A model generated the notes under the pieces. That model saw only the letters and a program-made list of their open reading frames with translations. It did not search any database and was not told where the DNA came from. From Capsaspora owczarzaki ATCC 30864 (Eukaryota; Opisthokonta; Filasterea), in assembly GCF_000151315.2 (NCBI RefSeq), contig NW_011887292.1, positions 2,023,181 through 2,087,180 of the forward strand: a stretch of 64,000 nt of DNA. Direction: 5' to 3'. The position numbers and the translations under genes were made by a program. Each line of letters starts with the position of its first letter. Within the stretch, counting starts at the first letter, position 1. Shown in pieces: positions 446-17,474 of this stretch.

Positions 446-3400
446 ATGTTTCGCCCCAACACCGGCGGTGGTGAGTGTTGCATGCATCCACACGCAATGC
501 ATTGAACGATAGAGAGAGAGAGAGAGAGAGTCAGAGAGAGAGTCAGAGAGAGAGACAGACAGAGGCCCTCAACAAAGATCGTTGAAGCGTCGACCGCGTC
601 TTGTTTCCCCCTCCCCCTCCAAAACACCCGCCGACGACGCGATCGCTGCTCTTGAGGTCCCTGCTTTTGTTCCTTCTGCACATGCCGTGTCTCTTTGGGT
701 CTGAGGAGTGAGCGGGACAAGGGGGGGGGAATGGTCGGGACGAAACCGCCTCGTCCTCGTGTAGGATTTTTTTTTTTTTTTTTTTTTTTTGGCTCTGTGG
801 CTGTTGGAGAGTGGCGTTCCCAGTGGCAGTGGGTGGCATGGATGGATGTTGAAGGGAGCGTTCGCATGAGCTTGCGTAGGCATACAGAGTTGCCTGCCCC
901 CTTTCCAACACGCCGCCGCCGCCAGAGAGTCGCCCCGCTTCGGGCTCACGCTCAGCCGAACCGCGCCACCAACGAAAGCCAGAGATCGCTCGTCTTGGAA
1001 GCGACCAGCCCCAGAGAGCGCCGTCATCGCACCACACCTTGGAAATCGCGTTTTGCTCAACACCATTCGTGTTACTAGGTGCAAGTTGGTTGTGTATGCA
1101 TCGGGCGAAACGCAGCGCGGTCGCTTGAGCTGTTCCCCTGAACGTTCGCTGCCGTTTTTGCGCGCGCTTTTTTCCCCTCCGTTCACATGTCGTAAACCAC
1201 GGTCAGGCTTACTCACTCGATGAGCACTGTGTTTTTGCTTGTTAGGATACTACGCAGGTGCCGGCGGAGCTGGCGGTGGCTTTCGTCCCGCCACAGGCGG
1301 CTTTGGTTACGGTACGTTCAAGATGAACTTGAGGTTGACAGTCTGATTGATGCGAGGGGCCTCACGTCGCATTGGACAATCAATCACATGTTGCTACACA
1401 GGCCGAGGTACAAATGCTTACGGTGTTGGAGCCGGAGCCGGTGCAGGTGCTGGAACCGGTGTCGGCTTTGGCCGTGGCGCGGGCGGCTTTGGCGCAGGAG
1501 CCGCTGCTGGCGGTTTTGGTCGAGGTGCCGGCGCCGGCGGCTTTGGTGCTGGTGCGGGCGCAGGCGCAGGTGCAGGCTTTGCTGGCGGCTTTGGCCGAGG
1601 GGCGGGAACTGCTGCGCAGCAACAAAACGCGTTCGTGTTTGACGAGGGTGTCGGCAACATGTTCTCCGTCACTGCCACCCCCGACTATGGCGGCTACAGC
1701 TTTGAAGAGTGGCGCTTGAACGATTACATGAACGGCCGCAAGCCGCCTCCGGCCATGGCAGCTCCTGCGATGGGTCAAGCAGGCGGCATGGGCATGGGCG
1801 CTGGAATCGGCATGGGTCGCGGCACTGGCCTTGGCGCTACCGGTGGCATGGGCATGGGTCAGGCTGGCATGGGTCAGGCTGGCATGGGCATGGGCCAGCA
1901 AGGCATGGGCATGGGTGCTGGAATCGGCATGGGTCGCGGCACCGGCCTCGGCGCAACCCCCGGCATGGGCATGGGACAAGGACTCGGCATGGGTCGTGGT
2001 ACCGGCATCGGCGCAGCAGGCGGCATGGGCATGGGCCAACAAGGCATGGGCATGGGCATGGGCCAGCAAGGCATGGGCATGGGCCGCGGCATGGGCACCA
2101 TGGGTCAAGGCATGGGCCAAATGGGCCAGATGGGTCAAGGCATGGGTCAAATGGGCCAAGGCATGGGCCAGATGGGCCAAGGCATGGGCCAAATGGGTCA
2201 AGGCATGGGCCAGATGAGGCCTGGCGTGATGGGCCAAGGCATGATGGGCCAAGGCATGATGGGCCAGGGCATGGGCCAGATGGGTCAAGGCATGGGTCAA
2301 GGCATGGGACAAGGCATGGGCCAAATGGGTCAAATGGGCCAGATGGGCCAGATGGGACAAGGCATGGGCCAAATGGGTCAGGGCATGGGACAAATGGGAC
2401 AAATGGGCCAAATGGGACAAATGGGACAAATGGGACAAATGGGTCAGATGGGTCAGATGGGCCAAATGAACCAAATGAACCAGATGGGACAAATGAACCA
2501 AATGAACCAAATGAACCAAATGAACCAAATGAACCAGATGGCTCAGATGATGTCCAACCCGATGTTTGCCCAAATGATGGCCATGATGACCAATCCAATG
2601 ATGGCCCAGCAAGCAGCTGGTGCGCAGCAACCACAACTCACTGCGCAGCAACAGGCTGCACTTGCTCAGCAACAAGCGCAATTCAAACAAGCAACTTTGA
2701 CCAACGCTCCGTACGGCAACTCAAACCTCTTCCTCCACTCTGGCAACCTTCCCAAGCCAGCCGGAGGCGCTGTCTTGCCTGCGGCGTCTGGTGCCGCAGG
2801 TGCCGCAGGTGCCGCTCAACCAGCTGCCGCCTCAGATGGAGCTGCAAGCAGTTCCGGTGGTTCCGGTGCCTTGCGACCAAGCGCAGCCGCTGCTGGGCCC
2901 AATATTGCACACTTCAAGGTTACCCCTCGATCGGCATCCAAGGTGAAGCCACGGTCGTACGGTCGGCTGACGGCCGGCAGCGATCGGGCTGGTGCCGGTT
3001 CTACGGCGAGCAGTGATGGGCTGCACCTGTTTGATGGCGGCTCGGCGGATGAGACAGTCCTGAGCCCGGACAAGTTCGTTCCTCGTTCGAGCGTCAAAAA
3101 GTTAGTCATTCTGCCGACCGGCGGCAGCGGGGGCGAGCAATTGCACTTCCCTGGCGACAACCGTGATCCTCGTGATTTCCGCAGCGTGCCAGCCACACCT
3201 CTGGCTCACGGCAGTATCTCGACTCCGAACGATACTGCTCTATTTAGTGGCTCACGCCGAGGCTCCCCGCCACATGGAACAATGCACTCATTGACCAGCG
3301 CTGCGAGCGGCGGTCTCTTTTCTTCGCCCGTTCGTCCTTCGCCCCGGCGCGAGCCGCTCGTGCCCTCCTCCGGTTCTGAAGCCACCGGATCTGCATCATC

Positions 3401-3523
3401 TTTGGACAACGGCTCGGCGACGCGCTCTGACTCGGCGATTCTTCCGTCGAGCCGAGCGGGCGCAGGATCAAGCTCGAGCGCCGTTACTAGTAGTTCCGAT
3501 CCTAGCAGCCACAGCCACAGCCA

Positions 3524-3554
<31 letters not shown>

Positions 3555-6500
3555 CTGAAACTGACGAGCGCTCGCGAGGAAGGCAAAAAAGCACCGTCAG
3601 CAGCTGCGTCTGACTCGAGAGAATCCGCCTCCGCGTTCAACGCCTCCGCCAACACTTCGTCCGAGTCTGTCAGTAACAGCGGTATTGTGTGCACGCAAGA
3701 AGGGTACTACACCCGACCGTCCGTGGCCGAGCTCGACGAGTTGTCTGAATTGGAGTTGACTCGCGTGAAGGACTTTGTTGTGGGTCGCGAGGACGTTGGC
3801 GAGGTTTTGTTCCCTGGAGCTACCGACGTTCGCGATCTGGACTTGGATGCCATTCTCGATTTCCAACCCCGCGCCATCTCCATCTACCCCGACGAGGACG
3901 CCAAGCCGCCGGTTGGCCAAGCGCTCAACAAGGAGGCCATCATCACTTTGCTGGACGTCTATCCCATGAATGCAGCTACCAAGGAGCTCAACCGCGACCC
4001 CGCCAGTCTTCTCGAGAAGCAATACCCCGAGAAGCTCCGAGCGGCTGCCGTCAAGATGGGCGCAGTGTTCCTGTCCTACGATGTGAACAGCGGCGTTTGG
4101 AAGTTCCGCGTGGATCACTTCTCACGCTATTCCTTGTCTCATGATGCCCAGGGCAATCCAGAAGGTCTCCATTCGGAGAGCTCTCGTCGCAGCGGCTTGT
4201 CCTTTGCTCCCGCAGCTCGTGGTGCCTCCATCCGTTCGCCTTGGACTGCCGCACCGACGTCCTCGGCAGCGGCCGTGTCCCACCAGACGTCAAGTTTCCC
4301 TTCAATCCTTCAGACCGACCTCGGCGACGACGTCATCGATGGGGATACTTCAACCTTCCCGTCGGCCATGCTCGGCATCGATGATGCACCCCCGAGCAGC
4401 TTATCAACGAGTCGCTTGAACACCAGCCAACCAACATCAGATTCTTTTTTCGGCCAAGCGCCGGGCGTTGCGCAGCATCCTCTGACCACCTCCCGGCGCT
4501 TTTTGGCTTCTGAACTTGGGCTGAATCCCAAGACCATGCAGCTGATGAAGGCATCGTACTTTAATGACGACCCGAGCAGCAGCAGCAGCAGCACTGACAC
4601 AACAACAGACGGCTCCGTCCAACCCATTCCAGCATCCTTTTCAACCACCATATCCGATTCAGCGAGAACCCGCCTGGGCGATCGCAACTACCACACTTCA
4701 TCTGCCTCTCCTCACATTCGTCAGCGAATTGGGCCTGCACCGTCCGCTGCCACCACCACCACAACCACCACAGCACTTTCCTCTGCCACGCCTTCCATCG
4801 TAGCATCGGCCTCTGGGCGCGCCACTTTTGCCGCAACCTCCTTGTCGGTTGCCAGTCGTCTTGATGCGCTGGCGGGCCGGCTTTCCCGCCCCTCAATCGC
4901 CCCAACGACTGCCAGCGCTACCGCCGTCTCCGTTTCGACCGCCGCAACTGCCCTTGCAGCGCGGTTTGAGGCCGAGACAAGCACGCTTCTCACGCAGCCC
5001 CTCCGCGAGCCATGCGTCATTCCCGCCACGAGCTCCATCGCCCACCCTTTGAACAACAAGTCCACTGTTGATGCTGGCTATTCAATGTCGCGTTCGTTTC
5101 GCATCGGGTGGGGTCCGGGAAACACGTTGGTTTTGCCGTCCAGGCAGCCCGTGCGCCCCGCCGCCCCGCTCGCGCCGAGCTCGCCATTGCCCGCTTCAGT
5201 GGCCATCACGTCGTCCGGCTCGGAGTCGTCTGCGCTGCATGTAGTACAGATTCAGCAAGTCAAGCCTGACCTCGTGGGCACGACACCTGCTCACCTGGAG
5301 CGGCTGCTGCAGCACCAGCTCGACTTTTCCATCGTGCAAGAGCGCACTAATCCTCGAGTGCCCCACGCCTCGAGGAGCAGCAGCAGCAGCATGGCCGTCG
5401 ATTCGAACCTCGCATCCACTTGCTTTGGGCTTCCTCAGAACAAGTTGGCCCTGATTGCGCAGCTCATGCGACGGATACTCGCCGATGTGGACGCGCAACT
5501 GGCAGAGTGCAATACGAGTAAGCTGCTCGTCAACCCCTCGACGACAGCAACGTCGAGCGGCATGGACTCGGGTCTGAGCTCACCGGCATCCTCGCGAGCC
5601 CTCAAGCTTGCCACGAGCGGTTCAAAGCGCCCAGCACACTCCACCCAAAGTCCCGGCGCTTGGTCTCGTGAGGAGGCTGTGCTCGACGCCGTGCACAGTG
5701 CATGGTCACTCACTCACGCATTATTCAGCCAGGAGGCAGACCTTGGCGTGCTGGGTTCTCACGGAGGACGCGAGGACCAGTTGCGCCGCCAGACCGTGAC
5801 GCGGTGGCTGGCGCGTGCCACGCGCCGCACTGTCGATGCTGAGGTTGGGGCCAAGCTGGTCGCCCGTCGCCGCCAGCTGGCTGCCCAATCCGCACTTGCG
5901 CCGACCGACAGTGGCAGCGACTCGCTCGACATTATTTTCACCCTTCTGACGGGTCGCCGTTTGCAGCATGCCTGCCGCGTGGCCCAGGAAACGGGCAATC
6001 TTCGGCTGGCCATGTTGATGTCGCAAGTCTTGGAGCACGAGCACATCCGGGACATTGTCGAGCAACAATTGCAAAACTGGGCCGACAGCGGGGCAGACAA
6101 CCACATGGACAAGCTTGCTTGGCGATTGTACACGCTGCTCAGCGGCCATGTATCCGAGGTCTGCGCCGAGCTCGACTGGAAGCGCGCCTTTGGTGTCGCG
6201 TTGTGGTTTGGCACCGATCCGCGTTCGTCCATTCGGGATGCCATGGTCGCCTACCAACATGCTCTGGACCACAAGAAGGCCTCGTTCCCTGTGCCAGTGT
6301 ACCACGAGCGGGCGCTTGAGCGACATGGACGCGAAGGCACCTCCAGTTCGACTCGGCGCCTTCCCCTCGATCTCAGCTACCACTTGCTCCAGCTGTATCT
6401 CTCGCTTGACGGCGAGCTTGAGACAAACACCACAGAGTCTGTCTTCCTGGCCAATTTGCTGTTGCCTGCGAACTGGACCCCGTCGCGCTTGGATTATTCG

Positions 6501-14536: not shown

Positions 14537-17474
<2,938 letters not shown>

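Follow-up and report, generated by a model that had tools for sequence, protein, structure and literature searches.

Does the nuclear gate need phenylalanine? Nup98, Nup62 and Nup58 are usually the main carriers of FG repeats, and three channel nucleoporins of a single-celled eukaryote, with MG/LG repeats where well-studied species have FG, would provide a natural way to ask. The question is raised by the start of the plus strand of the window (the whole 64-kb stretch of DNA analysed here), where a first-pass annotation had described a NUP98 gene with Met-Gly-Gln repeats in the usual place of FG repeats and had proposed that Met stands in for Phe as the sticker.

Joining the inferred exons of this gene (446–470, 1246–1311 and a long exon from 1402, with joins inferred from GT/AG and frame) gave one open frame, whose features are collected in Table 1. 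When compared with PDB sequences by phmmer, the HFKVTPR and HLFDGG motifs of the linker, the autopeptidase with its HF|S site and the Nup96 domain were all aligned to the Nup98–Nup96 chains 7f60_C and 7fik_G; the linker motifs HFKVTPRSASKVKPR, HLFDGG and FVPRSSVKKLVI align with PDB Nup98 at 16.8 bits. In the autopeptidase, HFSRYSL lies opposite HFSKYGL of the PDB Nup98 chains, which makes HF|S the predicted cleavage site. The GLEBS motif, which binds Rae1/Gle2, was found at its expected place between the repeat sub-domains: TATPDYGGYSFEEWRLNDYMNGRKPPP shares, by eye, 13 of 27 residues with TAMKEYESKSLEELRLEDYQANRKGPQ of 7f60_C, within phmmer stretches that are themselves weak (−2.1 bits for 7f60_C; 12.7 bits, i-Evalue 0.13, for 7fik_G). 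On the strength of these predicted domains, the gene is the organism's Nup98–Nup96 precursor.

Table 1. Features of the Nup98–Nup96 gene, in coordinates of the window
Feature	Position	Strand	Details
Nup98 N-terminal block, GGFG-type	446..1625	+	105 aa, 6 FG, 9 Phe; exons 446-470, 1246-1311, start of exon from 1402
GLEBS motif	1626..1751 (about)	+	phmmer alignment to 7f60_C and 7fik_G
Met-Gly-Gln / Met-Asn-Gln tract	1752..2612 (about)	+	287 aa, 79 Met, 1 Phe, 0 FG
Linker before autopeptidase	2613..3677	+	355 aa, 0 FG, 51 charged residues
Nup98 autopeptidase PF04096	3699..4136	+	143.7 bits, cut-off 28.4; HF|S site, Ser codon at 4122
Nup96 domain PF12110	5934..6779	+	247.3 bits, cut-off 25; later exons to about 7895, read by eye

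A second FG-rich NUP98, which had been named as something that would refute the proposal, was sought genome-wide and not seen; the autopeptidase model has a single match in the 27.46 Mb genome. Relatives of the autopeptidase were likewise absent from the genome-contig and viral-contig collections, which are non-eukaryotic, and the whole protein, searched against the viral contigs, matched 15 loci, each only within residues 305–444 of P0001, the low-complexity part. Elsewhere in the window, the plus strand carries a polyubiquitin-like frame (16776–17471).

The Met-Gly-Gln tract between GLEBS and the autopeptidase is real and had been placed correctly. Up to NPMMAQQ, its 287 residues include 100 Gly, 79 Met, 56 Gln and a single Phe, with 58 MG, 3 LG, 3 IG and no FG dipeptides. 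Among 1000 composition-matched shuffles the mean was 27.5 MG and none had as many as 58, whereas the LG and IG counts were reached by 41 and 51 shuffles, respectively. The density of [MLIV]G is 22.3 per 100 residues; D, E, K, Cys and His are absent, and the Met spacings include 33 MxxM and 10 MxM. Two parts of the original description had to be narrowed. The tract lies between GLEBS and the autopeptidase but does not reach the latter, because a 355-residue linker intervenes; and the absence of FG holds from GLEBS to the autopeptidase but not before GLEBS, where 105 residues contain six FG and nine Phe, the last FG before the autopeptidase being at residue 94. Since six FG were equalled in 120 of 1000 composition-matched shuffles, the order of residues in this block shows no clear FG enrichment.

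Taken together, the N-terminal block and the tract (392 residues) contain 20.4% Met and 2.6% Phe. Their six FG correspond to 1.5 per 100 residues, below the norm for Nup98 FG domains, for which about 8 FG per 100 residues and a median of 43 FG are reported (PMC4283134, PMC8245513). The charge (2.8% R+K and 0% D+E) fits a feature of such domains, whose median is 2.5% charged residues.

The larger finding extends beyond Nup98, as FG has been nearly lost from Nup62 and Nup58 too. Nup62 is found on contig C12 (PF05064, 55.0 bits; PDB matches to Nup62 and Nsp1 chains) and Nup58 at 3.69 Mb of contig C1 (PF15967, 59.8 bits; PDB matches to Nup58 chains), each with its conserved coiled-coil region. The 309-residue repeat region of Nup62, read from a piece that excludes the first exon, has 23 LG, 9 VG, 5 MG, 3 IG and 1 FG. 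Three repeat pieces of Nup58 (Na, Nb and C, the last tied to the gene by neighbourhood and strand only) have 46 LG, 35 MG, 5 IG, 5 VG and 1 FG. In terms of density, FG amounts to 0.3 per 100 residues in the Nup62 piece and to 0, 0.2 and 0 in the Nup58 pieces. The two proteins thus hold 131 LG/MG/IG/VG vs 2 FG, and the pieces read from all three nucleoporins 197 [MLIV]G vs 8 FG (66 vs 6 for Nup98 without GLEBS and linker, 40 vs 1 for Nup62, 91 vs 1 for Nup58).

None of 1000 shuffles attained the LG counts of Nup62, Nup58 Nb and Nup58 C, nor the MG counts of Nup58 Na and Nb, as was the case for MG in the Nup98 tract. Enrichment was weaker for MG and VG in Nup62 (reached by 29 and 12 of 1000 shuffles), while VG in Nup58 Nb and C was unenriched (691 and 438 of 1000). 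Leu is dominant in Nup62 and in two of the three Nup58 pieces. The Met-rich repeat of Nup58, on the minus strand, shows a single frame change near L008:6560, beyond which the repeat goes on in another frame, so that the two N-terminal pieces were read separately; it may reflect an assembly error, a polymorphism or a genuine change.

When a degenerate pattern for MGQMGQ was run over the whole 27.46 Mb, it found 25 (overlapping) coding sites, vs 0 for a control pattern. Of these sites, Nup98 has 19 and Nup58 has 5, and the last one falls in an ENTH-like frame. Regions with at least seven [ML]G per 100 residues were confined to the three nucleoporins and the ENTH-like frame, among 2638 windows of 100 residues taken from the 64-kb window and ten stretches picked for other matches (of which L037 and L039 overlap). 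In this same set, at least five FG per 100 residues occurred in the Nup98 N-terminal block, on the antisense strand of Nup98 and in an epsin-like tail. Searches that use a tract as the query can miss related tracts, because the search with the Nup58 tract skipped Nup62 and the search with the Met tract skipped Nup58.

Two of the frames encountered are of a different kind. The ENTH-domain-like frame (L036:4634–5053, plus strand) carries QPQMGF/QMGF repeats, so that what looks like an adaptor of the endocytic type has a tail of Met-Gly-Phe. The epsin-like frame (L012:1480–3030, minus strand) ends in AFG, NPYGQ and NPFGQ repeats, with 5–6 FG per 100 residues in the tail. L012 and L013 had both come up as weak LG-like matches (E 0.005, 0.009), and upon frame reading neither was judged to be a nucleoporin: L012 looks like epsin, and the L013 match lies on the strand opposite a proline-rich frame.

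As for FG repeats elsewhere in the genome, the FG-domain model PF13634 found no match, a weak negative because the margin by which a true PDB Nup98 FG piece clears this model is just 2 bits (34.2 vs 32.2). That same piece, used with phmmer against the PDB, retrieved only four sequences, named Nup98 or Nup98–Nup96; these few matches and the thin PF13634 margin indicate that sequence search is a poor tool for FG domains. Nup54 (PF13874, PF18437) had no match in the genome. The Nup214 propeller model PF16755 gave, among the matches listed, one sub-cut-off match in a WD40-like frame, which we did not accept as Nup214. Nup35 was located (PF05172, 88.7 bits), and no FG-rich exon was seen at its locus among the listed plus-strand frames of at least 75 residues.

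Physically, the repeats resemble FG domains. On the hydrophobicity scale printed in PMC4283134, the tract has a mean of 0.414, Nup62 of 0.443, Nup58 of 0.405–0.437 and the linker of the Nup98 protein of 0.362, while a 141-residue PDB Nup98 FG piece and a published 12-mer GLFG unit score 0.416 and 0.412. No D or E occurs in the Nup98 N-terminal block, in the tract or in any of the repeat pieces read from Nup62 and Nup58. FILVM residues make up 30.3% of the tract, 11.4% of the Nup98 N-terminal block and 18.8–24.8% of the Nup62/Nup58 pieces, as compared with 13–17% reported for ten studied Nup98 domains (PMC4283134), and [MLIV]G density ranges here from 11.8 to 22.3 per 100 residues. The higher FILVM content points to weaker stickers at higher density. 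The charge depletion, the FG-like hydrophobicity and the loss of FG from Nup62 and Nup58 lend indirect support to the idea that Met stands in for Phe as the sticker. The idea is borne out only in part, since the change is not to Met alone and Nup98 keeps six FG.

Could the tract be an artefact of the gene model, being intronic or read in another frame? Much of it is also open in one other plus-strand frame and in two frames of the antisense strand, and a scan of 1402–2700 for splice donors of the form GTRAGK or GTACGT, which found none, was narrow, because the presumed donor GTTTGT after 6779 in the same gene would escape it. Nonetheless, the frame runs uninterrupted from GLEBS through the autopeptidase to Nup96, and single-base differences within the tract are all synonymous in the coding frame. 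Among codons nine bases apart (2088–2537), we counted 25 synonymous and 0 non-synonymous differences in that frame, vs 5 and 25 or 0 and 33 in the other two; the coding-frame count takes in single-base codon differences only, between repeat units that are not independent. An artefact is thus largely refuted and barely credible. The same count bears on a neutral low-complexity expansion, whereby the tract would be filler made by slippage, with no barrier role. A near-perfect 9-base periodicity and the small number of unit types (33 MGQ and 7 MNQ in 44 units) would suit such an origin, but synonymous-only single-base differences are the trace of a constrained protein repeat, not of plain slippage. 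Over all pairs of the 44 units, pN/pS is 0.20, with a non-synonymous share that includes whole-codon changes between unit types; codon use in the tract is GGC 33, GGT 10 and GGA 8 for Gly, and CAA 30 and CAG 12 for Gln. A similar motif change in two more nucleoporins, mostly via Leu codons, the near-restriction of MGQMGQ to two nucleoporins and the depletion of charge also argue against neutral expansion, which we disfavor as improbable.

A dedicated Met function outside the barrier, as a redox sensor or as Cu(I)-binding Met motifs, seems very improbable. The wealth of Met (79 in 287 residues) and its MxxM and MxM spacings would be in keeping with it, and the Met-rich domain of Pbp1 is said to melt on oxidation (PMC8394241). 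Yet the tract lacks Cys and His, and Leu, which is mainly used in Nup62 and in two of the three Nup58 pieces, suits neither role; a redox effect could, on the other hand, accompany a barrier function. The remaining alternative is that a conventional FG barrier persists, with nucleoporins of the Nup54, Nup214, Nup153, Nup42 and Nup50 type and the GGFG block of Nup98 giving Phe for receptors, and with Met/Leu repeats contributing only cohesion or bulk. This would agree with the six FG kept before GLEBS and with the report that, in vitro, FG phases admit receptors far better than Phe-free phases do (PMC9918544); moreover, the models for Nup54 and Nup214 matched nothing or fell below threshold, and those genes may carry FG. 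The near absence of FG from Nup98, Nup62 and Nup58 tells against it, as does, if weakly, the lack of any PF13634 match in the genome, and on the whole we find a conventional barrier rather unlikely.

Opposite the MNQ/MGQ tract, the minus strand (2218–2637 of the window) has an open frame that reads GSFGSFGSFG. Reverse-complemented and read in a shifted frame, FGS repeats become MNQ repeats, and micro-inversion of an FG array could swap F for M. As the main account of the tract we rejected such an origin: the motifs of Nup62 and Nup58 use Leu, which inversion leaves unexplained, so that it is not the general cause.

We consider it probable, with some reserve, that the post-GLEBS domain of Nup98, like the repeats of Nup62 and Nup58, carries aliphatic XG motifs (MG, LG, IG, VG) in replacement of FG and builds a mostly aliphatic, FG-like permeability barrier. 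The tract would be disordered and would condense through its Met and Leu side chains, the weakness of the stickers presumably being offset by their number (11.8–22.3 [MLIV]G per 100 residues here vs 6.3–10.3 FG in studied Nup98 domains), and the Met/Leu tracts may fill the channel as an FG-like phase. Transport receptors might be fitted to the aliphatic motifs, or might use the six remaining FG and other nucleoporins. By analogy with Pbp1, Met oxidation could loosen the phase. A bolder version, which we offer only tentatively, would have selective nuclear transport run through a central channel nearly free of Phe, with Met/Leu-Gly stickers in Nup98, Nup62 and Nup58, co-evolved receptors and importin pockets predicted to be reshaped for aliphatics.

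With regard to receptors, the model PF02136 gave three matches in the genome, assigned to two genes. Downstream of the gene on contig C8 lies a long frame of low complexity, an arrangement like that of G3BP, while the one on contig C14 is NTF2 (best PDB match 1.6e-22), the sole NTF2 found. In its start, MGDARAIGENF (L038 from 814, plus strand), Ala4 aligns with the Ala of chain 1qma at wild-type residue 7; 1qma is the rat NTF2 W7A mutant. Where rat NTF2 has Trp7, which contributes most to FG binding, the NTF2 of this organism has Ala. The W7A change is reported to cause about ten-fold weaker binding to Nsp1 FG domains and no brush collapse (PMC4336380). The Ala hints at receptor adaptation, although a single site in one gene with approximate exon ends is suggestive only.

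Should the bolder version hold, FG would be one solution that can be replaced rather than something physics demands, and its Met share would allow the pore to be tuned by redox state. A natural barrier of this sort would also allow the question "why FG?" and the co-evolution of receptors and motifs to be tested in an evolved system instead of in mutants.

In the open-licence literature we found no report of nucleoporins with LG/MG in place of FG, and the available text of PMC2951903 makes no mention of them. From 666 Nup98 FG domains, an unvarying FG density and a marked preference for Phe/Leu have been described as conserved or invariant (PMC4283134, PMC8245513). In that survey, as set out in PMC4283134, an FG domain ended at its last FG dipeptide, counted from the start, and only domains of 400–1000 residues were retained. 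With its last FG before the autopeptidase at residue 94, the present Nup98 would, by our reading of this rule, have dropped out, and a case of this kind was nearly invisible to the method.

Compared with the canonical Nup98–Nup96 (human, and T. brucei Nup158 for GGFG), the protein has the same order of parts, namely FG block, GLEBS, repeats, linker, autopeptidase with HF|S, and Nup96, and it shares a charge-depleted repeat domain of similar mean hydrophobicity. Tetrahymena micronuclear Nup98, with its NIFN repeats, is also a natural departure from GLFG, yet it retains Phe in the motif. Canonical Nup98 differs in FG density: the ten domains listed in PMC4283134 Table 2 have 6.3–10.3 FG per 100 residues, as against 1.5 here. 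Pbp1/ataxin-2 offers a likewise low-complexity domain with Met replacing aromatic stickers, whose condensation is reportedly reversed by oxidation (PMC8394241); it is, however, no nucleoporin and has no barrier role. Of the traits of such redox-sensing domains, the tract described here shows Met enrichment. Another close system is the engineered GLLG//L phase (Ng 2023, PMC9918544), which has aliphatic stickers, uncharged spacers and no aromatic residue in the motif, as do the repeats of this organism. Replacement of Phe by Leu alone was reported to abolish phase separation until extra Leu was supplied, the added Leu compensating for the lost Phe; the GLLG//L phase does form in the absence of Phe, and mCherry is kept out of it (PMC9918544). 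The GLLG//L phase is engineered and relies on Leu only, whereas the repeats found here are natural, use Met as well and occur in three nucleoporins.
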